This document shows, in pieces, positions 1,384 through 20,555 of a DNA stretch of 20,803 bases; the stretch's first letter is position 1, and every line of letters starts with the position of its first letter. The DNA comes from a virus. The notes under the pieces were generated by a model. It worked only from the letters and a program-made list of their open reading frames with translations. It ran no database searches and was not told where the DNA came from. The DNA is taken from the IMG/VR virus record IMGVR_UViG_3300027908_000253, positions 1 to 20,803 of that record. The stretch is one strand, 5' to 3'. Made by a program: the position numbers and the translations under genes.

Positions 1384-1722
1384 TTAAGAGCCGTCCGAAA
1401 GGGCGGCTTTTTCTTTTTGCGCTCGCATCGTCGGAAGATTGTATTTGCCGACGACGGATCCTGGACCACTGGTTAGCTTTAGGATCGGTTCAGCTCTTTG
1501 CATCAGGCAATCTATTGCCCATTGCGGGACGTGCCGGCGACCTTTGCGCCAGTGTTGGATTGCGCTCCAGGTAACTCGATTGTGGAATAGCGCGAGCACC
1601 TCGCGGTGCGATCCTGACGGCGCAAATGCGCGAATCACTTTGTTCAACGCGGCGACGCTACCACTCGGCACGGGAGAGCGGTTAGGGTGCTTAGGAAGCC
1701 CGCACGCTGGCGATTCGTTCAT
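1384..1722 (-). CDS. HTH regulator, Cro/CI-like phage DNA-binding protein
   Basis: This 112-residue leftward gene probably encodes a DNA-binding regulator. Residues 40-75 (HREVLALFHNRVTWSAIQHW and onward) follow the pattern of a phage Cro-type helix-turn-helix: helix, turn at RVTW, recognition helix SAIQHWRKGRR, then WAIDCL. The flanks are proline- and serine-rich and look disordered. The start has a weak AGG about 8 bases upstream on the minus strand. It is the only leftward gene in the left part of the window and faces a 400-base gene-free control region, as a lysogeny-type or early repressor would. Its operator is unknown; the 17-base palindrome at 2082-2098 is a candidate by proximity only. 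Confidence 0.65.
   Translation of the reverse strand: MNESPACGLPKHPNRSPVPSGSVAALNKVIRAFAPSGSHREVLALFHNRVTWSAIQHWRKGRRHVPQWAIDCLMQRAEPILKLTSGPGSVVGKYNLPTMRAQKEKAALSDGS
1390..1417 (+). terminator. Rho-independent terminator with GAAA tetraloop
   Basis: GCCGTCC (1390-1396) pairs with GGGCGGC (1401-1407), including one G-T pair, across a GAAA loop (1397-1400), followed by TTTTTCTTTTT. It lies 25 bases after the stop of the gene at 1117. The same bases encode the last residues of the leftward gene that ends at 1384, so the two units are convergent and overlap here. Confidence 0.85.
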
Positions 1723-2081: not shown

Positions 2082-2098
2082 GTAGTTGCCGTGACTAC
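2082..2098. repeat. 17-bp palindrome, copy A
   Basis: GTAGTTGCCGTGACTAC has 5-base inverted arms around 7 bases. It is one of four related sites (also 3927, 5060, 9478). It lies 24 bases before the GTG start of the cytosine methyltransferase and overlaps the -35 of a candidate promoter, so it could be an operator. Confidence 0.7.
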
Positions 2099-2116
2099 AG
2101 CAACCGTGCTACATTC
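2087..2116 (+). promoter_or_regulatory. Possible promoter for the methyltransferase block
   Basis: TTGCCG near 2087-2092, an 18-base spacer and TACATT (about 2111-2116) form a weak sigma-70-like pair. The -35 lies inside palindrome copy A, an arrangement that would let a bound protein block transcription. The match to consensus is modest. Confidence 0.3.
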
Positions 2117-2121
2117 CAACA

Positions 2122-2997
2122 GTGCAGCCACTTGCCTACTACAATGAGATCGACCCATACTGCGCTCGGTGGCTGCGCAACCTCATCGCAAATTCCCACA
2201 TCGCTCCAGGCCACGTCGACGAGCGTGACATCCGGGATGTCAAGCCTTATGAACTCGCCCCCTACACCCAATGCCATTTTTTTGCCGGCATCGGCGGCTG
2301 GTCTGTTGCGCTCCGACTCGCAAATATTTCCGATAATCAAAAAATTTGGACTGGCAGCTGTCCTTGCCAGCCTTTCTCCGCGGCAGGCTTTGCAGGCGGC
2401 TTTGATGATGAGCGGCATCTCTGGCCGGCATGGTTCCAACTCGTCGCGCAGTGCAAGCCTCCAATTATCTTTGGAGAGCAGGTTGCGAGCAAGCTTGGAC
2501 TGCAATGGTTCGACCTTGTTCAATCTGATCTGGAAAACGCGCACTACTCCGTTGGGGCGATCGATCTGTGCGCTGCGAGCGTCGGCGCGCCGCATATCAG
2601 ACAGCGATTATGGTTCGTGGGGCACGCCGAAGGTTGCGACGGGCGATTACCAGCGCGATCGATCCGGCAACAAGATTCTGAATTTGCAGGGGCAGGCAAA
2701 ACTCGCGAGCTGGCCGACACCAACGAAGGACGATTCGAAGAACAGTGGGAAACCGGAAACGGCGAGAGTAGCAAACAACAGCGATCCGTTTTCGTCACTT
2801 CCGACAACAGTGCATCGCGTAATTGGAGTGCTGTTGACTGGCTCCCCTGCACCGATGGAAAAGCGCGGCCAGTTGAACCCGGCACATTCCCGCTGGCTCA
2901 TGGGATACCCGCCCGAGTGGCTAAGCTGTGCGCCTTCGGCAACGCCATCGTCCCGCAAGTCGCGGCGGAATTCATCAAAGCGGCCCTAGCCCAATGA
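2122..2997 (+). CDS. DNA (cytosine-5) methyltransferase
   Basis: Transfers a methyl group from SAM to C5 of cytosine in DNA, probably shielding phage DNA from host restriction. Visible motifs are motif [10 protein letters not shown] (about residues 52-60), the catalytic loop [12 protein letters not shown] with the PCQ cysteine (about 78-89), GEQVAS in place of the usual ENV motif (about 113-118), the QRLWFVG motif VIII region (about 161-167), and motif [16 protein letters not shown] near the C-terminus. The length of about 291 residues is normal for compact phage enzymes. GTG 2122 is the only start that keeps the expected N-terminus ([18 protein letters not shown]); no Shine-Dalgarno is evident. 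The stop overlaps the next start (ATGA at 2994). A second frame covering nearly the whole gene is also open (see the entry at 2237). Confidence 0.9.
2237..2989 (+). CDS. Overlapping frame, [20 protein letters not shown]-type phage protein
   Basis: This frame is shifted by one base relative to the methyltransferase and is open from 2132 to 2989. Likely starts are ATG 2237 or 2249; neither has a good Shine-Dalgarno. Its translation has features I associate with a family of phage proteins often named DNA methyltransferase: LPASAAG near the start, [26 protein letters not shown] and SWPTP repeats, and [17 protein letters not shown] near the C-terminus. These segments are the other-frame reading of conserved methyltransferase DNA, so their conservation may be a by-product. 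It has no SAM-binding or catalytic motif of its own. It is either a real overprinted gene or a recurrent annotation shadow. Confidence 0.35.
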
Positions 2998-3203
2998 CCA
3001 AACTCCCCCACCACGAAGCAAACTATAAACCGACAACCCCGTTCCCCGGCCGCAGCTGCTTGAACTGCACGATGTTTTCCTGCGTCGTCGTTTCATCCTC
3101 GCCGGAGCCTGCCGCAGGCAGATGCCGACTGGTCCAGGATCCAATATCCCGCGAAGGTTGGTGCAAATTCCATGAGAAGGTGCTGCCTTGGGTGTTGCCG
3201 TGA
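2994..3203 (+). CDS. Small HiPIP-like cysteine protein
   Basis: A 69-residue protein whose cysteine pattern (SCLNCTMFSC, then GRCRLVQDPISREGWCKFHE) matches that of high-potential iron-sulfur proteins and related small phage proteins: CxxC, a variable stretch, then C...GWC followed by an aromatic residue. It could bind an Fe-S cluster or zinc. There is no signal peptide, so a periplasmic electron carrier of the classical HiPIP kind is unlikely. The start overlaps the methyltransferase stop (ATGA) and the stop overlaps the GTG proposed for the next gene (GTGA at 3200), so the three are probably translationally coupled. Confidence 0.6.
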   Translation: MTKLPHHEANYKPTTPFPGRSCLNCTMFSCVVVSSSPEPAAGRCRLVQDPISREGWCKFHEKVLPWVLP

Positions 3204-3227
3204 TCAAACTCCTTCAAGGCGACGCGA

Positions 3228-3992
3228 TTGCGTTGTGCAAAAACGCTTCGATCGTCGTGCATCGATCTCGTTGTTTCCGATCTACCTTACGGGCAGACTC
3301 AGAACGATTGGGATAAACCGCTGCCGTTTGAATCGATGTGGCAGGAGTTGCGTCGCGTTACGAAGCCTGCTGCAGCAATCTGCTTAATGGCCGCGCAACC
3401 ATTCGCCGCTCGCCTTGTGTGCAGCAACGAGAAAGATTTCCGCTACGATCTTATTTGGTACAAAAACAAAGCTACTGGATTTCTCAACGCGAAGCGCATG
3501 CCACTGCGAGCGCACGAACACATTCTAATTTTTTATCGGCAAACACCTATTTATAATCCGCAAAAAACTAACGGGCACGAGCCGGGGCACAACGCGAAGC
3601 GCGCTACTAAAAGTTCTAATTACGGAGCTTACGAAAGCACAGAATACGGCGGCAGCACTGAACGCTATCCGACGAGTGTTTTGTCAATTCCGATTATCAA
3701 TAATGATTCTCCCGACAAGGAGCATCCTACACAGAAGCCGGTTCCTTTGATGGAATGGCTGATCGCGTCGTACAGCGTGCCGGGAAACGTCGTGCTTGAT
3801 ATCACCGCCGGCAGTGGTACGATCGGCGTCGCGGCAAACAACCTGAATCGCCACGCTATCCTGTTCGAATTGAACCCGACGTACATAGAAATAGCTCAAC
3901 GCAGATGCGGTCTTGACAAACCCTTCGTAGTCACCGAAACTACGCCATGGCATACCGATGGACGCCTGAAGCTTGGCGCGCGTGGCAGTTGA
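3228..3992 (+). CDS. DNA N6-adenine/N4-cytosine methyltransferase, 5' end frame-disrupted
   Basis: An amino-methyltransferase of the beta arrangement. Motif IV DLPYG comes early (about residue 18), followed by a target-recognition region, HPTQKP (about residue 166), the SAM-binding motif DITAGSGTIG (about 190) and ELNPTYIEIAQRR. It would methylate adenine N6 or cytosine N4. The frame's first available start is TTG 3228, but the typical beginning of this family, MIKLLQGDAIALCK, is encoded in another frame from GTG 3200, coupled to the preceding stop. The two frames meet at an A5 run (3239-3243); removing one A would join them into a normal protein. The gene is therefore either frameshifted, affected by a sequencing error, or translated from a weak downstream start. 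Confidence 0.85.
   Translation: MRCAKTLRSSCIDLVVSDLPYGQTQNDWDKPLPFESMWQELRRVTKPAAAICLMAAQPFAARLVCSNEKDFRYDLIWYKNKATGFLNAKRMPLRAHEHILIFYRQTPIYNPQKTNGHEPGHNAKRATKSSNYGAYESTEYGGSTERYPTSVLSIPIINNDSPDKEHPTQKPVPLMEWLIASYSVPGNVVLDITAGSGTIGVAANNLNRHAILFELNPTYIEIAQRRCGLDKPFVVTETTPWHTDGRLKLGARGS
3927..3943. repeat. 17-bp palindrome, copy D (inverted)
   Basis: GTAGTCACCGAAACTAC; its reverse complement GTAGTTTCGGTGACTAC aligns with the other copies. It lies inside the end of the amino-methyltransferase gene and ends 3 bases before the ATG at 3947. Confidence 0.65.
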
Positions 3993-4153
3993 GCAACCAG
4001 CAGCTGCTGGCGCGAGGATTCAAGCTGGTGACCAATTATTTGCGCGACGGCACGATCGAGCACTGGGCGATTCGCGGCGAGCAAAAACTGCGCAACGATC
4101 CGTGCTGGCCGCTAATCCCGTTGGAATGCCTCGAACACCATAAGGAGTCTTGA
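3947..4153 (+). CDS. Hypothetical phage protein, 68 aa
   Basis: Not recognised. It starts inside the last 46 bases of the methyltransferase gene, in another frame, and ends one base before the next gene's ATG. No clear Shine-Dalgarno is visible; palindrome copy D occupies the position just upstream of the start. The product is tryptophan-rich (WTPEAW, RAWQL, IEHWAIRG, CWPLIPL) with a charged C-terminus. The overlap is longer than elsewhere in the window, but codon use after 3992 and the tight spacing to the next gene support it as coding. Confidence 0.5.
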   Translation: MAYRWTPEAWRAWQLSNQQLLARGFKLVTNYLRDGTIEHWAIRGEQKLRNDPCWPLIPLECLEHHKES

Positions 4154-4154
4154 G

Positions 4155-4376
4155 ATGAAACACCTGATCATGGACGCAACGGGTCACAGCACGATCGAGT
4201 TCAACCCGCTTGACAGCGGGCAAGCCAGCGAGGCGATGGAGCGCTTCCGCGCCCTGACTGGCAACGGGCACGTCGCTGCCACGCGCAAGGCCGGCGAGAC
4301 CGATTACCAGGTGATCAAGACCCCGGACCAGCAGCAGGACGAGACCCTGTTCGTCCCGCAGATGCGCGGTGGCTGA
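4155..4376 (+). CDS. Conserved small phage protein, 73 aa
   Basis: Resembles a small protein I have seen repeatedly in proteobacterial phages, starting with a hydrophobic Met-Asp-Ala-Thr-Gly-His segment (LIMDATGHSTIEF), with an AMERFRALTGNG middle and a DETLFVPQMRGG end. Its function is unknown; the fold may be a small alpha/beta domain. The Shine-Dalgarno AGGAG (4143-4147) gives good spacing to ATG 4155, and the preceding stop is only one base away. The codons are GC-rich, unlike the AT-richer genes on either side. Confidence 0.7.
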   Translation: MKHLIMDATGHSTIEFNPLDSGQASEAMERFRALTGNGHVAATRKAGETDYQVIKTPDQQQDETLFVPQMRGG

Positions 4377-4394
4377 CTTGCCTCCGGCGGCCCT

Positions 4395-5009
4395 GTGCAC
4401 GCGCTTGAACTGTGGTTGGAACAGTTATCTGCGGCGCAGTTATTAGCTGTTGTAATTTGCGCCTTGATTGCCGGCGGTTTTGTTGGCGCTTTATTTTCCA
4501 GTTTTTTGGAACCGCGGTGCAACATGGCTGTTGACGGTGACATAGATAATTGGCGTCACGCTTGCCGAACTGCAACAATAGCATGCGTTGGTAGCGGCTA
4601 CGCGAATACCGGCGAGATTACCAAAAAATCTTTCGACCTCCTGCGCAGTTGGCTTTCGAAATCCCAGCTTGAAGATTTCAATGTGCTGAGACATTTCGAT
4701 GTCATCGGCAGCAGGACCGGAACGAGATATCGTATTTCCCAGCGTTCCAGTTTCAACGTCGAAGAACTTTCATCTGCCGGGTATCCTATTGCCATGCTTT
4801 GTTTCATCCCGCAAGGCGCCCACGCCATGGGTGATATCATGCTGGCTCAGAAGGTCATGCTGGAAACCGACGAGCCCTCGGCGCTGAAGATTGCAAATCG
4901 GAGCTCCCGTTTTAGAAGCGACGTGTATGCTGGTCTCGTGGCAGCCACGCAGCGTTCGATTTCGCTTAATTCCATTTGGCGAAGGCTCTTCGAGCAGGTT
5001 ATCGACTAA
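4395..5009 (+). CDS. Membrane-anchored hypothetical protein, 204 aa
   Basis: Not recognised. It begins at GTG 4395 with a weak upstream signal. Residues 12-38 ([20 protein letters not shown] and onward) form one clear N-terminal membrane segment; the rest is predicted soluble with mixed helices. This suggests a protein held in the inner membrane by its N-terminus, but no catalytic motif stands out. It is followed by palindrome copy B and a very strong terminator, so it ends a transcription unit. An accessory or superinfection-exclusion role is possible but unsupported by any motif. Confidence 0.6.
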
Positions 5010-5059
5010 ACGTAAAATAATTTCGGCTCGTTCGCCGAAGGCGGGGTTGACTCTCTCCG

Positions 5060-5076
5060 GTAGTTATGGCAACTAC
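5060..5076. repeat. 17-bp palindrome, copy B
   Basis: GTAGTTATGGCAACTAC; the most symmetrical copy, with perfect 6-base arms around 5 bases. It lies 60 bases before the long-stem terminator. Confidence 0.7.
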
Positions 5077-5135
5077 ACAAGTGCCGACGATCCTGGACCC
5101 ATAGTCGCCCCCAGCCTCGTAAGTCCAGGCGCGGT

Positions 5136-5189
5136 GCCCGGCTCCTGCTTAACCCGCCGTAGGCGGGTTAAGCAGGAGCCGGGCTTTTT
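5136..5189 (+). terminator. Exceptionally long perfect-stem terminator
   Basis: The arms 5136-5158 and 5162-5184 are perfectly complementary over 23 base pairs with a 3-base GTA loop, followed by TTTTT (5185-5189). This is far longer than a usual intrinsic terminator stem. It separates the membrane protein gene from the RHH/ClpX-finger/glycosyltransferase unit. Confidence 0.9.
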
Positions 5190-5224
5190 AACCCGCCGAA
5201 GGTGGGCAAGCCAGGGAATGCGTG

Positions 5225-5383
5225 TTGCCCGACAACCATCCGACTTCAATCCGGCTCGATCGCTCGCTCAAGGTCGAACTGGTCAAGTTTGCCAAGGCAC
5301 AGGGCTGCTCGGTGACTTGGTTGATCGCCGACATCCTGAGGAAGTGGGCGGCCTGGAAGAAGGCGCAGGAGCAAAAGAAATGA
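5225..5383 (+). CDS. Ribbon-helix-helix (Arc/CopG-like) DNA-binding protein, 52 aa
   Basis: A short gene with a clear ribbon-helix-helix pattern: the beta strand [10 protein letters not shown], then helix A ([11 protein letters not shown]), a turn with Cys-Ser, and helix B ([19 protein letters not shown]). Such proteins bind DNA as dimers through the paired N-terminal strands and usually act as repressors or autoregulators. TTG 5225 is preferred because AGGGA (5213-5217) lies 7 bases upstream; GTG 5222 is also possible. The stop overlaps the next ATG (ATGA at 5380). Lying just after the strong terminator, it could regulate the downstream cassette, perhaps through one of the nearby palindromes; that is inference. 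Confidence 0.75.
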
Positions 5384-5553
5384 GCAAAACGAAATGCTAT
5401 TGTTCGTTTTGTGGAAAAAGCAACGAGGAAGTATTTCAGTTAATAGCTGGCGTGACTTGTTTTATTTGTAATGAGTGCGTTGGTTTGTGTGTAGAGATAA
5501 TTGCGAAAAAGCGTGCGGAAGTCACAAAGTCTCTTTTGGAAGCGGGCTACTAA
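5380..5553 (+). CDS. Stand-alone ClpX-type C4 zinc-finger protein, 57 aa
   Basis: The protein is essentially only the N-terminal zinc-binding domain of Clp[21 protein letters not shown] continuing to [14 protein letters not shown], with the four zinc cysteines in CxxC...CxxC (C8, C11, C30, C33). In ClpX this domain dimerises and binds substrates and adaptors such as SspB, lambda O and MuB. No AAA+ ATPase follows; the protein ends after a short charged helix. It may bind host ClpX or its adaptors, or serve as a simple zinc module. The start overlaps the RHH stop (ATGA), so the two are coupled. The codons are AT-richer than those of the following glycosyltransferase. Confidence 0.85.
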
Positions 5554-5554
5554 A

Positions 5555-6577
5555 ATGAAAATCGCTCTCATCATCACGACGATCAACGTCCCGACTGTTT
5601 TGCAGCTCTACCGCAAGCTTGATTCCACTGTCCATTTCTTCGTTGCCGCCGACGAAAAGACACCGTTGGAAGCCTACCAGTTCTGCGCTGACATCCCCGA
5701 TTGCGAGATTTATTCGCCCGATCGCCAGAATAAACTGGGGTACGAGTGTTCTTCCTTGCTGGGGTGGTCCACGGTGACGCGCAGAAATATTGCGCTGCTT
5801 GAGGCTTTGAAATGGGGCGCTGAAATCGTTGTTACGATCGATGATGACAATATGGCGATGGATGATCCATATTTCTGGTATTTTCAGAAATTGTTGGATA
5901 ACCAGTGGCCGTGGGTCGGGCTCCAAATCGGCTCCAGCCTATGCTGGTTCGACCCCGGCTCGCTTCAATTCTCGCGCGACAATCGCACGGTGACACAGCG
6001 CGGTTTTCCCCAGCGCTATCCCATGCATCCTATCGTCAAGCCTATCATCGGCGCCAGGATCGGCGTAGCGCAAGGCATGATCCTTGGTGATCCCGATACC
6101 AGCGCGATCGACCGCATTTCACAGCAGCCGGAAGTGCATCAGGTCAGTGAACTGCTGCGCGCCGGCAGCGTTGTCAATTTGAATACCTGGACCGTGTTCA
6201 ACACGCAGAACACGGCTTTCCTGCGCGAGTTGGCTCCGGCCATGTTTTGCAATCCGCATTTCGGGCGTTACGACGACATCTATGCCAGCCTCATGACCCA
6301 GCGCATCATGCGCGAGCGCGGACTGCATGTCCATCTGGGGCAACCGTTCGTGTGGCAGCAGCGCAATGATCACGACCTGCTGAAGGACTTGGCTGCGGAG
6401 CAATGGGGCGCCGAGCACATCCTGGAATTCGCCGATTACCTTAAACGTTCCCCCTTGCCCGCCAGCATCTCGGTTGTCGAGCAATGCATCATCCTGACCA
6501 ACGGCTGCGCTCTGTTCTCCGACGATGCCAAGGAAGTGGCAGAAGCGTGGTATCGGGATTGCGAGCGCGTCCTATGA
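5555..6577 (+). CDS. Glycosyltransferase, RGP/STELLO (DUF288)-like
   Basis: Residues 1-10 (MKIALIITTI) form the first strand of a GT-A nucleotide-sugar fold. RRNIALLEALKWGAEIVVTI followed by DDDN (about 77-99) matches reversibly glycosylated polypeptide and STELLO-like proteins, where the acidic triplet (residues 96-98) binds the metal and sugar nucleotide. The middle region (GLQIGSSLCWFDPGS, GFPQRYP, YDDIYASLMTQRIM) also fits that group. It probably transfers or rearranges a sugar; the acceptor is unknown. ATG 5555 lies one base after the previous stop. The stop overlaps the next ATG (6574). The codons are GC-rich and uniform. First large gene of the sugar cassette. Confidence 0.75.
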   Translation: MKIALIITTINVPTVLQLYRKLDSTVHFFVAADEKTPLEAYQFCADIPDCEIYSPDRQNKLGYECSSLLGWSTVTRRNIALLEALKWGAEIVVTIDDDNMAMDDPYFWYFQKLLDNQWPWVGLQIGSSLCWFDPGSLQFSRDNRTVTQRGFPQRYPMHPIVKPIIGARIGVAQGMILGDPDTSAIDRISQQPEVHQVSELLRAGSVVNLNTWTVFNTQNTAFLRELAPAMFCNPHFGRYDDIYASLMTQRIMRERGLHVHLGQPFVWQQRNDHDLLKDLAAEQWGAEHILEFADYLKRSPLPASISVVEQCIILTNGCALFSDDAKEVAEAWYRDCERVL

Positions 6578-6747
6578 AAATATCCTGGTCAAAATTGGAA
6601 TTGTTGCAGCACGAAGTAACTTTTAGTATTGCGGCTGATGTACGTTCCTCAACTGAAATGGAAGTTCTAATTCGCATTTTACAGATCGCTAAAGAAGCCA
6701 TGGAAGAATATGAAAAGGATTTTCCTACGAAGGAAAAACCAAAATGA
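6574..6747 (+). CDS. Small hypothetical protein, 57 aa
   Basis: Not recognised. It is coupled at both ends: its ATG overlaps the previous stop (ATGA, 6574) and its stop overlaps the next ATG (6744). The product is mainly helical and acidic (EMEVLIRILQIAKEAMEEYEKDF) with a lysine-rich tail. The codons are clearly AT-richer than the glycosyltransferase before it, which suggests a separately acquired small gene. Confidence 0.6.
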   Translation: MKISWSKLELLQHEVTFSIAADVRSSTEMEVLIRILQIAKEAMEEYEKDFPTKEKPK

Positions 6748-8078
6748 ATCGTGTCGCCATAGCATTTTCCTCTTGCGATCGCGTCGAGCTGACCAAGCGC
6801 TCGATCGAGCCGCTGTTTCAGCCTGACAAGTTTGATCTTCATTGGGTTGATGGGAGCAAAACGGAGGAAGGTAAATTTTTTACATACAGGGTTTATGATT
6901 CGCCGATTTTGATTTCCACAAATAAGATACAGTTGCACCAAAACATTAATGGTGGTTCTGGGTCTGCAATTGTTTATGCGCTCACGAAACTGCTAAAGAA
7001 GTTATGGGAAAAGCCGGGCACTAAAGCGACTTCTCAAGGTTACGACTACATCGGCCTCGTCGAGAATGACGTGCTGCTTCACGACGGCTGGTTCGACGAC
7101 ATGATGGCTCTGTTCGAGCGTGGCGAGCAGGATGGCTTGAAGGTCGGCGCCGTCTCCGCGCGCTGCTACGAGGACCGAATTCTTATTCAGCGAGACGGCT
7201 ACGCCGTCATGCACAACCTCGGCGCCGGGATGATCGTGTTCACCCGCGAAGCCGCTGAGATTGTCCTGCAGACCTACCGCACCGTCTGGACCACCGAGAA
7301 CCGCCTGCTGTTTTCTCAACTCAGTGGAATCGACATCGGCCGTTACTGGGCCTTCCGCGGCGACCAGCATTTTCTTGTCGCAGACTGGCGGTTTGATATG
7401 ATTTTAGCCGCTCACGGTTTTGTCAGTCTCGCCCTGACTCCCAACCGGGCAACCATGCTGGATCAGGACATCGCACCGCTTGGTTTGAAATATGCCGATG
7501 GCAACTTTGCGCTCGCCTGTAACTCCGCGGCGTTCGAGCGTTATCGCGACAACCTTGCCAGGATACGCGCGGGCGACCTCGCACCGGGCATCAATCATCC
7601 CTTCTACCATGATGGGCAGGCTCACATGATTTTTGCACACCAGGTTCCTCAGATCGGAGGTTCCTACGCCGGCAACTGGCGTGTCCGCGACTTCCAGGGG
7701 TTTGGTCCATTCTGCTGGGTTGCGGGCGGCCCAGCACTGGAGGACGAATCTTGCGGCACCCAGCGGGTCAGCGATCAGCTCCCGACCGCGACGCTGCCGA
7801 TCGTCGGCCCGTGCGATCTGGTTGTGAGCGGCGGCAAGATCGGAGGCAAGGTGTGCGTCGTCGATGCACAGTCCGGTTTCAACGTCGACCTGGATTTGCC
7901 CGCCGAAGGCTCGCCTAGCGGGGTGCTGCAGATCGCGGTGCCGGGATCGGCGGTGTATCGCGACGTGGTACTGACGGCGTTGACGCCGGGCATATGCTTC
8001 TTTGGCGTGCGGACACGGGAGAAGCAGCCTTGGCTGCCCCAAGTTCGGTTCGACTATTCGACGTTGCCTCTTGCTTAA
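6744..8078 (+). CDS. Glycosyltransferase, GT-A fold, with C-terminal beta-rich domain
   Basis: The N-terminal part looks like a GT-A glycosyltransferase: the first strand VAIAFSSCDRVELTKRSIEP, then NINGGSGSAIVYAL (about 67-80) and YDYIGLVENDVLLHDGW (about 100-116), where END (107-109) takes the place of the DxD metal motif. The residues around AVMHNLGAGMIVFTRE resemble the acceptor side of GT2-like enzymes. Residues from about 310 are beta-rich and may form a separate binding domain. The donor and acceptor sugars are unknown. Bases 6840-7000 are AT-richer than the rest, a patch inside the gene. Coupled to the small gene upstream. Confidence 0.7.
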   Translation: MNRVAIAFSSCDRVELTKRSIEPLFQPDKFDLHWVDGSKTEEGKFFTYRVYDSPILISTNKIQLHQNINGGSGSAIVYALTKLLKKLWEKPGTKATSQGYDYIGLVENDVLLHDGWFDDMMALFERGEQDGLKVGAVSARCYEDRILIQRDGYAVMHNLGAGMIVFTREAAEIVLQTYRTVWTTENRLLFSQLSGIDIGRYWAFRGDQHFLVADWRFDMILAAHGFVSLALTPNRATMLDQDIAPLGLKYADGNFALACNSAAFERYRDNLARIRAGDLAPGINHPFYHDGQAHMIFAHQVPQIGGSYAGNWRVRDFQGFGPFCWVAGGPALEDESCGTQRVSDQLPTATLPIVGPCDLVVSGGKIGGKVCVVDAQSGFNVDLDLPAEGSPSGVLQIAVPGSAVYRDVVLTALTPGICFFGVRTREKQPWLPQVRFDYSTLPLA

Positions 8079-8093
8079 CTGGGGAGGAGTGAC

Positions 8094-8411
8094 ATGTGCA
8101 ACGCCTGCGGATTTCTGTGTTGCGCCTGGGATGGCTTTGCGTACTGCGGCTGCGACGGCTGCGAAGAACCACTTTGCTGGACCGAGGACGAGGAGGACTA
8201 CGACGATGAAGGTGACTTTGGAGAGTACGACGAAGATCGTGACGTTGGTAGTGGACGGGAAATCCGTGCCGGCGAGGATATGGGAAGACGTCACCGAGCG
8301 CGGAATCCGCTGCCATGCCTATGTGACCCGGATCGCGGTGCACCAGGACGACGACGCCTCACAGTTCGAAGCGGAACTGAAAGAGCAGCGCCAGCCTTCC
8401 GCTGCGATTGA
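8094..8411 (+). CDS. Cysteine-rich acidic small phage protein (C-terminus uncertain)
   Basis: A strong Shine-Dalgarno (GGGGAGGAG, about 8080-8088) precedes ATG 8094. The first 29 residues contain eight cysteines (MCNACGFLCC, CGCDGC, CW), followed by a very acidic stretch (TEDEEDYDDEGDFGEYDED). The pattern resembles small Cys-rich phage proteins with a possible metal site. The frame stays open to 8411, but from 8206 it overlaps a better supported gene in another frame, and its last 60 residues look like a non-coding shadow. Translation to the frame end is expected unless the sequence has an error. Confidence 0.5.
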   Translation: MCNACGFLCCAWDGFAYCGCDGCEEPLCWTEDEEDYDDEGDFGEYDEDRDVGSGREIRAGEDMGRRHRARNPLPCLCDPDRGAPGRRRLTVRSGTERAAPAFRCD

Positions 8412-8439
8412 AGCTATCCCACTGCGCCTCGTTGTCTAG
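8206..8439 (+). CDS. Conserved small phage protein, 77 aa
   Basis: Begins MKVTLESTTKIVTLVVDGKS and continues with ARIWEDVTERGIRCHAYVTRIAV, ASQFEAELKEQ and an IPLRLVV end. This pattern occurs in many phages near structural or accessory genes; it looks like a small beta-rich protein whose function I do not know. A GGAGG lies about 10 bases before ATG 8206. The gene starts inside the acidic part of the previous gene. Confidence 0.7.
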   Translation: MKVTLESTTKIVTLVVDGKSVPARIWEDVTERGIRCHAYVTRIAVHQDDDASQFEAELKEQRQPSAAIEAIPLRLVV

Positions 8440-8452
8440 GACATAGCGACAA

Positions 8453-9481
8453 ATGAAAATCCTGATTACAGGCGGCGCGGGATTCATAGGGCGAGCGTTT
8501 ACGCGCCGGTTGGTTGATGATGGGCATGATGTCTTGATCGTGGATAACTTGTCTACGGGATTACACCCGGAGCGTTGGGCATTTAATTGGGCATTTAATT
8601 GGGCATTTAACTCGTGCAATAATTTTGAATTTCAATGTAGGGATTGCCGAGATTTTTTTGCGCACTGGTTCGATTTTTTTGATCATCACGACGGCAATCC
8701 GTTTGATCTTGTCATCCACTGCGCTGCGATTGTTGGCGGCCGGCTGAATATCGACGGCGATCCGCTCAGTGTTGCGACGAACCTCTCGATCGACAGCGAG
8801 TTTTTCAACTGGGCAGTCCGCGGCAAGAAGCTTCCCAAGGTCATATATTTTTCATCGTCGGCGGTCTATCCGCTGGAGTTGCAGACAAGGGAGCGCAATT
8901 GCGCCTTGTCCGAATCGCTGGTCACGTTTGATACCTCGCGCCTGAGTCGGCCCGATCAAACATACGGATGGGCCAAGCTCTCCGGCGAATATCTTGCCAA
9001 GATCGCTGCCGAGAAGTACGGACTTGATGTCAAGATTTACAGGCCCTTTGGCGGCTACGGCGAGGATCAATCTCTGTCCTACCCCTTCCCCTCGATCATT
9101 CGCCGCATTCTCCGCGGCGAGGATCCGATCACAGTCTGGGGTTCGGGCGACCAGGAACGTGACTTCATTCATATCGACGACATCGTGGACGCCGTGCTCC
9201 AAACCATGGATGACCTCAAGCCGGGCGAGGTTCTGAATCTCGGCACCGGCCGTGGCGTGTCGTTCAAGGAACTGGCGCGCATAGCGCTGCGCGTGCTCGA
9301 CCTCCCGCAGACGACTTGCATCATCAACGATCCGACGAAGCCGGAGGGCGTCTTCCGCCGTGTCGCTGACACTTACAAACTCAACCAGTTCTACCAGCCA
9401 AAAGTATGGCTGGAGCAGGGTATCCTGCGGGTTGCCGAGCACCTTAAAAAGACGCTTGACGTGCCCGAAAATATCGTGTAG
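8453..9481 (+). CDS. NAD-dependent sugar epimerase/dehydratase (extended SDR)
   Basis: Acts on a nucleotide sugar. Visible are the Rossmann motif GGAGFIG (residues 7-13), the adenine-ribose acidic residue D31 in VDNLSTG, the SSSAVYP serine region (134-140), and the catalytic Y171 with K175 in YGWAKLSGEY. The IYRPFGGYG and RDFIHIDDIVDA segments are also typical. The substrate (UDP-hexose, GDP-mannose type or other) cannot be fixed from sequence alone. An in-frame 12-base tandem repeat adds WAFN three times (residues about 42-53) after the first Rossmann unit, an unusual insertion. The stop lies inside palindrome copy C. The start ATG 8453 has a weak Shine-Dalgarno. Confidence 0.9.
   Translation: MKILITGGAGFIGRAFTRRLVDDGHDVLIVDNLSTGLHPERWAFNWAFNWAFNSCNNFEFQCRDCRDFFAHWFDFFDHHDGNPFDLVIHCAAIVGGRLNIDGDPLSVATNLSIDSEFFNWAVRGKKLPKVIYFSSSAVYPLELQTRERNCALSESLVTFDTSRLSRPDQTYGWAKLSGEYLAKIAAEKYGLDVKIYRPFGGYGEDQSLSYPFPSIIRRILRGEDPITVWGSGDQERDFIHIDDIVDAVLQTMDDLKPGEVLNLGTGRGVSFKELARIALRVLDLPQTTCIINDPTKPEGVFRRVADTYKLNQFYQPKVWLEQGILRVAEHLKKTLDVPENIV
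8575..8610 (+). repeat. Three perfect 12-bp tandem repeats
   Basis: TTGGGCATTTAA occurs three times head to tail with no mismatch. The unit is four codons long, so a change in copy number keeps the epimerase frame and adds or removes WAFN. Confidence 0.9.
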
Positions 9482-9494
9482 TTATGGTGACTAC
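9478..9494. repeat. 17-bp palindrome, copy C
   Basis: GTAGTTATGGTGACTAC spans the epimerase stop codon (9479-9481) and is followed immediately by an ATG (9495), near the start of the next small gene. Confidence 0.7.
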
Positions 9495-9506
9495 ATGGAG
9501 GCGGTT

Positions 9507-9725
9507 ATGCACGAATTGACTTATGTCAAGGGAACTGACGCGCGCAATTACATTGTGCGGTGTACTTGTGCTTGGGCAGCATCCGGCACGTTTCTGGAAA
9601 CAGAAAATCGCGGCGCTTATCACTTATATCAGAACAATCCGTTGCGTTGGAACGACCCCAAGAGGTTTTATCAATCGGACAGGACTTATCCGCCCTTCAG
9701 CAATTTTAAGGGGAAACTGCCGTGA
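9507..9725 (+). CDS. Small hypothetical protein, 72 aa
   Basis: Not recognised. GGAGG (9497-9501) is 5 bases before ATG 9507, so that start (MHELTYVKG) is preferred over ATG 9495. The product has a CTCAW pair, many aromatics (YHLYQNNPLRW, RFYQ) and a basic C-terminus. Its stop overlaps the recombinase start (GTGA, 9722), so the two are probably translated together; a helper or regulatory role for the recombinase is possible. Confidence 0.55.
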   Translation: MHELTYVKGTDARNYIVRCTCAWAASGTFLETENRGAYHLYQNNPLRWNDPKRFYQSDRTYPPFSNFKGKLP

Positions 9726-10426
9726 TTCTCGGCTATACAAGGGTCTCGACTCAGGAACAAGCCGGCAAGAACACTACGTCTCTTGCCGCGCAGGAACAGG
9801 TCATTCGCGGCATCGCCATGACGCGCGGCGCCAGTTCGTTCGACGTGCAGATTTTTTCTGATCCCGGCGTGTCGGGCTCGATCCCGCTGGATCGGCGGCC
9901 GGCGGGCAAGGAGTTGCTGGAGACGGTACAGAAGGGCGACACCGTTTGTGCATCGAAGCTCGATCGCATGTTCCGATCGGCATCCGATGCGTTGGTGACC
10001 GCGGAGCATTTGAAGGACAAGGGTGTGCAGCTCATCCTGTTCGATATCGGGGTCGACCCAGTGACGGATAATGGGATGGCCAAGTGCTTCTTCACGATGG
10101 CGAGCGCCTTTGCCGAACTGGAGCGGCATCGCATCGGCGAGCGAATGGAATCCGGCCGCCAGCAGAAGCGCGAGCGGATGGGTCATCTTGGTGGCGTGGC
10201 GCCCTACGGTTACCGCGTCGTTGGCGCCAAGCGAGAGTCCAGGCTGGAGCCGATCCCCGATGAGCAGGTCATCCTGAAGCAGGCGCTGGACCTCGCGTCT
10301 ACTGAAGGCTGGTCTTCCTGGAAAATCACCAAGCACCTGAATGGCCAAGGCCACAAGAACCGCGTCGGCCAGCCGTTCGAGTGCTTCCAGGTCAAGCGGA
10401 TGTTGGAGCGGCAACAGATTGCTTAA
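9722..10426 (+). CDS. Serine recombinase (resolvase/invertase family)
   Basis: Site-specific recombinase that cuts and rejoins DNA through a serine-phosphate link. The N-terminal catalytic domain begins ILGYTRVST with nucleophile S9 and R7. SKLDRMFRS (78-86) holds the D81, R82 and R85 active-site set, and ELERHRIGERM (about 132-142) is the E-helix region. GGVAPYGYRV (about 157-166) begins a short recombinase-type DNA-binding domain. At 234 residues it is close to resolvase/invertase size, shorter than large phage integrases. GTG start, coupled to the small gene before it. Its target sites are unknown; it could be a phage integrase relative or a cargo gene inside the sugar cassette. Confidence 0.9.
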   Translation: MILGYTRVSTQEQAGKNTTSLAAQEQVIRGIAMTRGASSFDVQIFSDPGVSGSIPLDRRPAGKELLETVQKGDTVCASKLDRMFRSASDALVTAEHLKDKGVQLILFDIGVDPVTDNGMAKCFFTMASAFAELERHRIGERMESGRQQKRERMGHLGGVAPYGYRVVGAKRESRLEPIPDEQVILKQALDLASTEGWSSWKITKHLNGQGHKNRVGQPFECFQVKRMLERQQIA

Positions 10427-19791: not shown

Positions 19792-20136
19792 GTTGCCACG
19801 CCCGTTGAATCCTGGAACTGGCGAAAGAATAGCAGGTCCACCGCGCATCGCGCCGCGTATGATTGGATCGCTCTCGGCCAATTTCTGGAATTCCGTCTGG
19901 GTACGTTGCTGGTGAAGTGCGCGTTCGATGTGGGCGCGCTTGGACAGATCGCAGTCTTCTACTGCCCAACAGGAAATATCTTTGGAAAAGAACACTCCAG
20001 TTTTTCCAAAGTCATCGGTGATTGTGAGTGAATCTGCCTTCGCATTAAAGTTACTACACGCTTTTTCGGCAGTTTCTTTGGTCTTGAAAACAAATTCCAA
20101 GGCGACGGGCGGGCAAGCGATTGTTATGATGTGCAT
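19789..20136 (-). CDS. Conserved phage protein, ~115 aa
   Basis: Leftward. MHIITIACPPVALEFVFKTK begins at ATG 20136, with AAGGA about 8 bases upstream on the minus strand; the longer frame to 20172 lacks support. DDFGKTGVFF, DCDLSKRAHIERALHQQRTQ and PAILSPVPGF follow. The DLSKxAHIERxLHQQRTQ pattern is one I associate with a conserved protein of phages with this gene layout; function unknown. It is the second gene of a leftward pair and overlaps the HTH gene by 13 bases. Confidence 0.7.
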   Translation of the reverse strand: MHIITIACPPVALEFVFKTKETAEKACSNFNAKADSLTITDDFGKTGVFFSKDISCWAVEDCDLSKRAHIERALHQQRTQTEFQKLAESDPIIRGAMRGGPAILSPVPGFNGRGN

Positions 20137-20405
20137 GTTGGTGGTTCCTTTCCATCGCGCTTGGCAGCCCAAGCTTTGAATTCGTCAATCGGGAATCGTA
20201 TGCAGTTGTTGCCGAAGCGTCGGTAGGGTGGCGGCTCTCCGATTATCCTGGCCGGACGTTTTTTAGAAGGCTTTACCCAACTGTAGACGGTCGTGAAGTG
20301 TACGCTGAGATAGCGCGCCGCGTCCTTTGCGGTCCAGTACGCTTTCTGGATTTCTTCCGGCGAACGGGTTTTCCGTTGCTGGTAGGTTTCAACCCATTTG
20401 CCCAT
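20124..20405 (-). CDS. Excisionase/MerR-like HTH protein
   Basis: Small DNA-binding protein. YWTAKDAARYLSVHFTTVYS followed by WVK is a helix-turn-helix of the excisionase/MerR-like (helix_turn_helix_17) type, and FGNNCIRFPIDEFKAWAAKR matches the wing that follows in that group. It may act as a directionality factor or local transcription regulator; a link to the serine recombinase is possible but 10 kb away. ATG 20405 (MGKWVETYQQ) is preferred; ATG 20429 adds MRVLSLCS. Neither has a clear Shine-Dalgarno. It is divergent from the micro-ORF/scaffold unit and first of two leftward genes. Confidence 0.75.
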   Translation of the reverse strand: MGKWVETYQQRKTRSPEEIQKAYWTAKDAARYLSVHFTTVYSWVKPSKKRPARIIGEPPPYRRFGNNCIRFPIDEFKAWAAKRDGKEPPTCTS

Positions 20406-20555
20406 GGAGCACAAACTTAGCACTCTCATGCACTAAAGGCAATACATAAATGCAGAGCCACTATTAGGCGGCTTTCTTCGCGTGCTTGATTATCCTCAAG
20501 CCGCTTCGAATGGTTCGGTGCGGTGTCTTAAACCCAACCACTCAGGAGAACAGCG
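20406..20555. other. Divergent intergenic region with alternative hairpins
   Basis: No gene is seen. GCGGCTT (20468-20474) can pair with AAGCCGC (20498-20504), while GCTTGA (20484-20489) can pair with TCAAGC (20496-20501). The two pairings share bases and exclude each other. Promoters for both directions probably lie here, but I see no clear consensus pair. Confidence 0.45.

Follow-up and report, generated by a model that had tools for sequence, protein, structure and literature searches.

Spaced GTAGT palindromes on four promoters of an uncultivated phage as probable operators of a small regulon, likely read by a ribbon-helix-helix protein

The Arc protein of phage P22, a small ribbon-helix-helix (RHH) protein, shuts down its own promoter and other promoters once enough of it has been made. 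For another RHH protein, Omega (ParB) of pSM19035, PMC9499535 describes 3R and 4R fragments in different orientation combinations that were bound with roughly similar affinity, and dimers of RelB, according to PMC2812701, bind one face of the DNA with the spacing of the half-sites being essential. In mycobacteriophages, the stoperators described in PMC9283540 are asymmetric repressor sites that occur in numerous copies. In this article, we analyze a 20,803-bp stretch of viral DNA (IMG/VR record IMGVR_UViG_3300027908_000253; hereafter the window, which comprises the entire record) that contains four copies of the spaced palindrome GTAGT-N7-ACTAC. The explanation that we propose, and that we consider likely as a whole, is that all four palindromes serve as operators in a single small regulon of the phage and that they are read by the phage's own 53-residue Arc/CopG-like RHH protein.

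The system resembles those of the P22 Arc/Mnt type in its small phage-encoded RHH protein, which belongs to an Arc-like group of the PHROG collection, in the two half-sites located on core promoters and in the presumed negative feedback. It differs from them in the half-site itself (GTAGT), in its extension over four promoters in 7.4 kb, and in the orientation of the half-sites, which is apparently free. In the proposed mechanism, each palindrome lies on the core promoter of one rightward transcription unit, the units being those of a C5-methyltransferase gene, a small open reading frame (ORF) at 3947, a leader RNA together with the RHH gene, and ORF 9507 together with a serine recombinase gene. 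Two RHH dimers would occupy one GTAGT half-site each, with their two-fold axes 10 bp (one turn of DNA) apart on one face of the double helix, and would contact the DNA through the strand P-T-S-I-R, where S9 and R11 are the residues that we take, from the Arc and CopG structures, to contact the bases. As a dimer of this kind is two-fold symmetric, a half-site could be flipped without loss of binding. The protein bound at the operator would block RNA polymerase, and the RHH protein would close its own promoter along with the others once enough of it had been made. We infer repression rather than activation because the operators overlap the region from -35 to +1.

All four copies listed in an earlier note on this DNA were confirmed at the coordinates given there (Table 1), and no fifth copy was found in the window when one mismatch was allowed. 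The fixed pattern had no match in 100 shuffles of the window. If any 5-base arm and any gap of 0–12 bases are admitted, a family of at least four copies arises in 5 of 200 dinucleotide shuffles (~2.5%), which is the argument for chance recurrence of a short palindrome, and the window alone is suggestive evidence of a non-chance family. Chance is for practical purposes excluded because relatives across the clade carry the palindrome at matching promoters. When palindromes were ranked de novo in each genome, GTAGT-N7 took first place in the window and in the relative G001, and also in G006 with 6-base arms; GC-rich repeats swamped most records. By comparison with relatives, the window appears to be a fragment, about one third, of a phage genome of ~63 kb; relatives of that size have repeating ends (for example, 127 bp in G001 and 123 bp in G011).

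A portal search yielded 80 loci, eight of which contain the pattern, in a single copy each and upstream of the portal gene. Whole records were then searched for 36 of these loci, picked by record length. Nine of the 36 have GTAGT-N7-ACTAC, with 21 sites in all (five in G001; three each in G006, G011 and G019; two each in G002 and G003; one each in G004, G009 and G012). The enrichment in relatives to which the earlier note had looked is seen as clustering in the nearest relatives and is absent from the other 27 whole records. In G001 (63,405 bp), the nearest relative, all five copies fall within 42.6–50.9 kb, i.e., within 8.3 kb of 63 kb. A search with a glycosyltransferase profile, centered on the operator region, gave 63 loci, and the pattern is present in 21 of them. 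In loci of sufficient length, a helix-turn-helix (HTH) gene on the minus strand is usually followed by a site, the RHH gene, the glycosyltransferase gene, a second site and the recombinase gene; the sites of the relatives are located close to the divergent HTH gene, at the leader of the RHH gene and ahead of the recombinase gene. When IMG/VR was scanned for the exact pattern with 14 bases fixed, at least 119 stretches were obtained, with one match each in the 80 stretches listed; these were deemed mostly chance matches and were not used.

Placement relative to promoters was counted over the window and 44 other loci, with the exclusion of sites whose flank was shorter than 40 or 60 bases and of sites in identical contexts. 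TTGAC, the -35 box, was found within 25 nt upstream of 36 of the 48 distinct-context copies, compared to 213 of 9000 random positions (2.4%) in the same loci; after stricter removal of near-copies, it was found within 28 nt on either side in 28 of 40. The spacing from TTGACN to the palindrome ranges from 4 to 16 bp, which places the palindrome between the -35 element and about +4. In eight of the 12 sites without TTGAC, the palindrome lies on the -35 element and is followed by GTGCTA. The window copy at 2082 is of the same kind: its candidate -35 element, TTGCCG at 2086–2091, lies within the palindrome as had been noticed before, and an 18-bp spacer separates it from the extended -10 element TGC-TACATT (TACATT at 2110–2115). 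The remaining four sites, judged by eye, have similar layouts (L283 at 7691 and 8783) or TTGCA upstream (L278 at 5039, L283 at 9691). Measured against a sigma-70-type promoter, with -35 and -10 elements 16–18 bp apart, the -35 element is clear in 36 of 48 copies and the -10 boxes are poor. As with the stoperators of PMC9283540, several sites are spread over a phage genome; unlike stoperators, the window sites are few, symmetric and tied to promoters by those 36 of 48 copies behind TTGAC, and they do not qualify as stoperators. Occurring in multiple copies, on promoters, and at matching genes in relatives, the palindromes are very probably operators of a promoter-blocking regulator, and the proposal of a phage regulator binding site in the earlier note appears well supported by sequence comparison.

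The note had offered an RNA hairpin acting near translation starts as an alternative, which we now consider very unlikely. Two copies do lie near ATG codons, the arms form small hairpins, and the variant repeats of L332/L279 and G005 retain complementary arms. Nevertheless, the hairpins of the four palindromes are weak (-2.0 to -4.2 kcal/mol), the sites cover the -35 and -10 regions and would thus be largely untranscribed, and the direct and outward pairs of the GTAGT half-site found at such promoters in relatives are unable to form the same hairpin. Moreover, of the two copies said to end within 3 bases of an ATG, the one at 3927 indeed lies just before the small ORF at 3947, but the ATG at 9495, which touches the copy at 9478, is probably not a start: the G011 homologue of the downstream ORF begins at the equivalent of the ATG at 9507, and the latter is preceded by GGAGG. 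Covariation of the arms leaves the choice between DNA and RNA undecided because the exact copies were collected with fixed arms, while GTAGC-N7-GCTAC and CTAGT-N7-ACTAG change both arms, which would be expected of a palindrome in either molecule; an argument that the arms never covary was dropped on account of the fixed arms.

Multiple palindromic copies, of which one precedes the recombinase gene in a number of relatives, could also be recombination sites of the neighboring serine recombinase. Sites of such enzymes measure ~26–28 bp, for which 17 bp is short. The longer conserved site and fixed center of a serine recombinase crossover site are not seen here: the 7-bp center is free, only one base is conserved on each side (T before the palindrome in 77% and A after it in 81% of distinct-context copies), and the copies follow promoters with their -35 boxes. 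We regard this reading as highly improbable.

The arrangement of the half-sites bears on the type of protein that reads them. Pairs of GTAGT were counted over 124 loci of the clade (1.8 Mb counted with overlaps), with contexts at least 85% alike dropped. There are 40 inward pairs with N7, eight direct pairs with N5, six outward pairs with N3 and six inward pairs with N8, and the other bins hold at most three. In a Poisson model based on the remaining bins, direct N5 has a probability of 6e-6 and outward N3 one of 1e-6, neither of them corrected for how many bins were compared. Spacers N7, N5 and N3 are equivalent to a single 10-bp axis spacing, provided that the half-site is read by a symmetric unit that can be turned around and whose center lies 1 bp 3' of that of GTAGT, and L319 has an 11-bp version (inward N8 and direct N6). 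The half-sites are thus found at a fixed helical spacing of 10 bp, with a minority class of 11 bp. One genome may combine two geometries: in L305 and L308, the RHH promoter has an outward N3 pair, and an inward N7 pair lies close to the recombinase gene. An RHH dimer is free of the single symmetry on which an ordinary HTH dimer depends, and flippable half-sites are a better match for symmetric RHH dimers. Omega likewise has half-sites that vary in their relative orientation (PMC9499535); in contrast to its contiguous 7-bp repeats, the phage promoters here carry single pairs whose axes are 10 bp (or 11 bp) apart.

The protein encoded at 5222–5383 matches phrog_582 (Arc-like repressor, E 2e-4). 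The profile of its family matches the CopG-family RHH structure 6iya (1.2e-8) and CopG itself (1b01, 4.4e-4) in PDB, and its AlphaFold2 (AF2) model (predicted local distance difference test, pLDDT, 89.8) has RHH proteins as top Foldseek matches (best E 0.011). At E 0.01, 11 of 28 family members match RHH_1 and 9 of 28 match RHH_5. With the predicted strand and two helices and the family profile, we assign the protein to the RHH regulators of the CopG/Arc superfamily. Its nearest solved relatives by profile or fold are of the CopG family (6iya, 7etr, 1b01), which recalls the autorepressors CopG, CopASO and RelB; unlike these, it has no toxin partner or copy-control context identified next to its gene in the window.

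Several observations connect this protein to the palindromes. The operator at 5060 lies in the promoter of the RHH gene, whose start is 145 bp past the site, as expected for autoregulation. Across the clade, 16 of the 22 site-bearing loci have a site that precedes the RHH gene by 89–498 nt (the RHH start of L272 was set by homology). In L301 the site is 1.2 kb away, and in L296 it is 2.0 kb away; L302, L305 and L308 carry GTAGT in pairs of a different geometry before this gene, and L286 begins at a contig end. The alignments cover 28 of the RHH and 23 of the HTH proteins found. All 22 site-bearing loci have the putative DNA-reading strand PTS[IVL]R; of 15 loci that lack the exact motif, one has it, namely L300, in which GTAGT half-sites point outward.

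The earlier note had named the HTH protein at 1384 and the RHH protein as possible readers. Both are still candidates, with the RHH protein favored by the comparisons that follow. If the HTH protein, perhaps a Cro/XRE-like repressor, were the reader, the RHH protein would do something else. The HTH gene is divergent from operator 1, it occurs with sites in 19 of the 22 site-bearing loci within the stretches compared and also in the record of L293, and a 17-bp palindrome fits the size of lambda-type operators. The protein has no Pfam or PHROG match, and its AF2 model (pLDDT 78) has Foldseek matches all with E >1, several of them XRE-type repressors. Against this reading, the region of the recognition helix is variable despite identical palindrome arms (TWSAIQHW, QYGAIQGW, SFACVRAW, HRTTVYNW, GYQTIKHW), direct and outward pairs of the half-site at such promoters are hard to reconcile with an ordinary HTH dimer, and the HTH start is ~360 bp from the nearest window site, compared to 145 bp for the RHH start. 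The purely inward symmetry and conserved recognition helix of a lambda-type HTH operator are thus not observed, and we consider the HTH protein an unlikely reader. The RHH protein is favored because of the site upstream of its gene, its constant strand while the HTH helix varies, and the half-site geometry, and we regard it as quite likely the regulator that reads the palindromes.

Since the window is only about one third of the genome, the reader could also be a regulator encoded elsewhere, for example the family of small XRE-like proteins represented in G001 at 37,146–37,442 (minus strand), which is conserved in 8 of 11 relative records compared. Its putative recognition segment, however, does not track the operator: in G019, with three exact sites, the segment ends in YWMERG like that of G012 (whose one exact site lies outside the region compared for this family) and unlike G001, G003 and G011. 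The G001 gene is also ~5 kb from the nearest site. This makes an outside reader more doubtful still than the HTH protein; the XRE-like family is possibly a second regulator.

Relatives without the motif have other repeats at the equivalent promoters: CACTA-N5-TAGTG twice in L299 (3360, 12104), GTAGC-N7-GCTAC twice in L279 (6543, 8714) and once in L332, CTAGT-N7-ACTAG once in G005 (17257), and GTAG direct repeats twice in L298 (8578, 13758). Those of L299, L279, G005 and L298 exceed chance. Some of the loci that lack the exact motif have a different RHH strand (S-V-Q, S-I-H, S-I-D, PISIR, S-V-K), and some differences go along with particular repeats: in L297 and L298, S-V-K with direct N5; in L299, S-V-Q with CACTA-N5-TAGTG, which is present at two promoters; in L290/G005, S-I-D with CTAGT-N7-ACTAG at the promoter of the RHH gene; and in L332, PISIR with GTAGC-N7-GCTAC. 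The clade thus seems, from these comparisons, to hold several operator types.

A number of results weigh against RHH-read operators, or weaken the evidence for them. A generic sigma-70 scan lists none of the operator promoters, because their -10 boxes are poor. In a permuted-word control, other words also show strong direct-repeat peaks (for example, 21 for TGATG), so that the direct N5 peak is weaker than its Poisson value suggests and inward N7 is the outlier; the outward N7 pair of L291 falls outside both spacing classes. Taken alone, the window RHH protein is under the Pfam gathering thresholds for RHH_1 and RHH_4, its best Pfam row being a sub-threshold match to Mitoregulin, and Foldseek gives it no match at E 0.001. 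The 22 site-bearing loci include near-copies (L271/L272/L275/L276 and L281/L284/L285/L286/L288) and are not independent. HTH and RHH genes mostly co-occur, so gene presence cannot separate the two candidates. G019 (L296) has no site near its RHH gene, and in G012 and L279 no RHH protein was found by profile search. Among the variant repeats, CTA-N5-TAG in L307 (3 seen, 4.6 expected) and GTGT-N12-ACAC in G012 (2 seen, 1.0 expected) are not above chance, and their position, with two copies each behind TTGAC, is what makes them suggestive as operators. The link between residue and operator is weak as well: among 35 loci whose residue 11 is R or K, 32 have paired GTAG cores behind a -35 element, compared to one of the three loci with D, H or Q (Fisher P 0.04, not corrected for relatedness), and L274/G008, L295 and L277 have R at this position yet no GTAG pair of this kind.

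If RHH-read operators are the correct explanation, a regulon and a candidate repressor would be defined for a clade of uncultivated phages, and the reading of half-sites by RHH proteins would follow a rule that is open to testing. The 38 RHH-bearing loci tallied, many with the operator in view, would provide natural changes of orientation, spacing and half-site for an RHH recognition code, and the recurrent C-rich leader of the RHH gene is a candidate new phage RNA. The broader proposition, namely that the clade forms a natural series of operator permutations in which one RHH family keeps GTAGT while flipping its orientation and spacing, that the half-site changes with the residue equivalent to R11, and that the operator also controls a new phage small RNA or attenuator, made first from the RHH promoter as a structured RNA with a C-rich loop and a terminator-like hairpin at its end, is tentative, and we would give it somewhat less than even chances.

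The earlier note had placed the copy at 5060 before a long terminator; a terminator-like hairpin lies downstream, in the leader between operator 3 and the RHH gene. The folding energy of the window leader is -73.3 kcal/mol (z -9.3), and the z scores of the leaders of two relatives were -4.3 and -2.1. Leaders were compared from 32 hand-placed starts (18 exact palindromes and 14 variant promoters); the counts of C-runs are based on the 27 distinct ones among them. A stem of at least 8 bp followed by a T-run is found in 17 of the 32 leaders compared to 4 of 300 random stretches. Of the 27 distinct leaders, 19 contain CCCCC (compared to 98 of 2000), 18 contain CCTCC (compared to 122 of 2000) and none contains GGGGG. 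Support for the leader structure comes from enrichment only because RNAalifold on five leaders was unsupportive, with a compensatory change in 1 of 23 pairs and an unfavorable covariation term. Rfam at gathering scores gave no match within the window. A terminator-like leader with a C-rich loop (5078–5195 in the window) recurs in the clade, in L271, L273, L291, L300, L304, L306 and others, and is a candidate small RNA or attenuator.

Table 1. Putative operators, leader hairpins and genes of the window
Feature	Position	Strand	Sequence	Remarks
Putative operator copy 1	2082–2098		GTAGTTGCCGTGACTAC	On -35 of the C5-methyltransferase promoter
Putative operator copy 2	3927–3943		GTAGTCACCGAAACTAC	8 bp past TTGACA (3913–3918); precedes small ORF 3947–4153
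Putative operator copy 3	5060–5076		GTAGTTATGGCAACTAC	7 bp past TTGACT (5047–5052); promoter of leader RNA and RHH gene
Putative operator copy 4	9478–9494		GTAGTTATGGTGACTAC	16 bp past TTGACG (9456–9461); promoter of ORF 9507–9725 and serine recombinase gene
Leader hairpin 1	5092–5129	+		C-rich loop; CCCCC at 5108–5112
Leader hairpin 2	5136–5189	+		23-bp perfect stem, then TTTTT; terminator/attenuator-like
RHH protein	5222–5383	+		53 residues, GTG start; putative DNA-reading strand P7-T8-S9-I10-R11-L12
Small helical protein, possibly XRE/Cro-like HTH	1384–1722	-		Divergent from operator 1
C5 cytosine DNA methyltransferase gene	2122–2997	+		Downstream of operator 1; PF00145 4.5e-15; phrog_363
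N6/N4 DNA methyltransferase ORF	3228–3992	+		PF01555 5.9e-30
Small ORF	9507–9725	+		Between operator 4 and recombinase gene; homologue in L152/G011
Small serine recombinase, resolvase domain	9722–10426	+		Downstream of operator 4; PF00239 1.3e-30; phrog_95

Among the neighboring genes, the C5-methyltransferase gene has a possible alternative start at 2145. The N6-methyltransferase ORF contains operator copy 2 in its 3' end, and the small ORF that follows this copy has no homologue in the loci compared. Comparison of the terminase and portal proteins with named phages gave only remote relatives (9 and 2 records, respectively), with no close named relative in the collection, and a text search for the motif in open PMC papers found no paper. 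Two portal relatives, L334 (PLFB01000004.1) and L335 (CAINEA010000556.1), are in contigs of metagenome-assembled genomes of Acetobacteraceae, a hint, subject to possible binning error, of alphaproteobacterial hosts for the clade. A nucleotide-sugar epimerase gene contains a short in-frame tandem repeat at 8575–8610 with three TTGGGCATTTAA units. Finally, an HTH_17/excisionase-like gene (20124–20429, minus strand) lies beside the portal gene and is present in many relatives.

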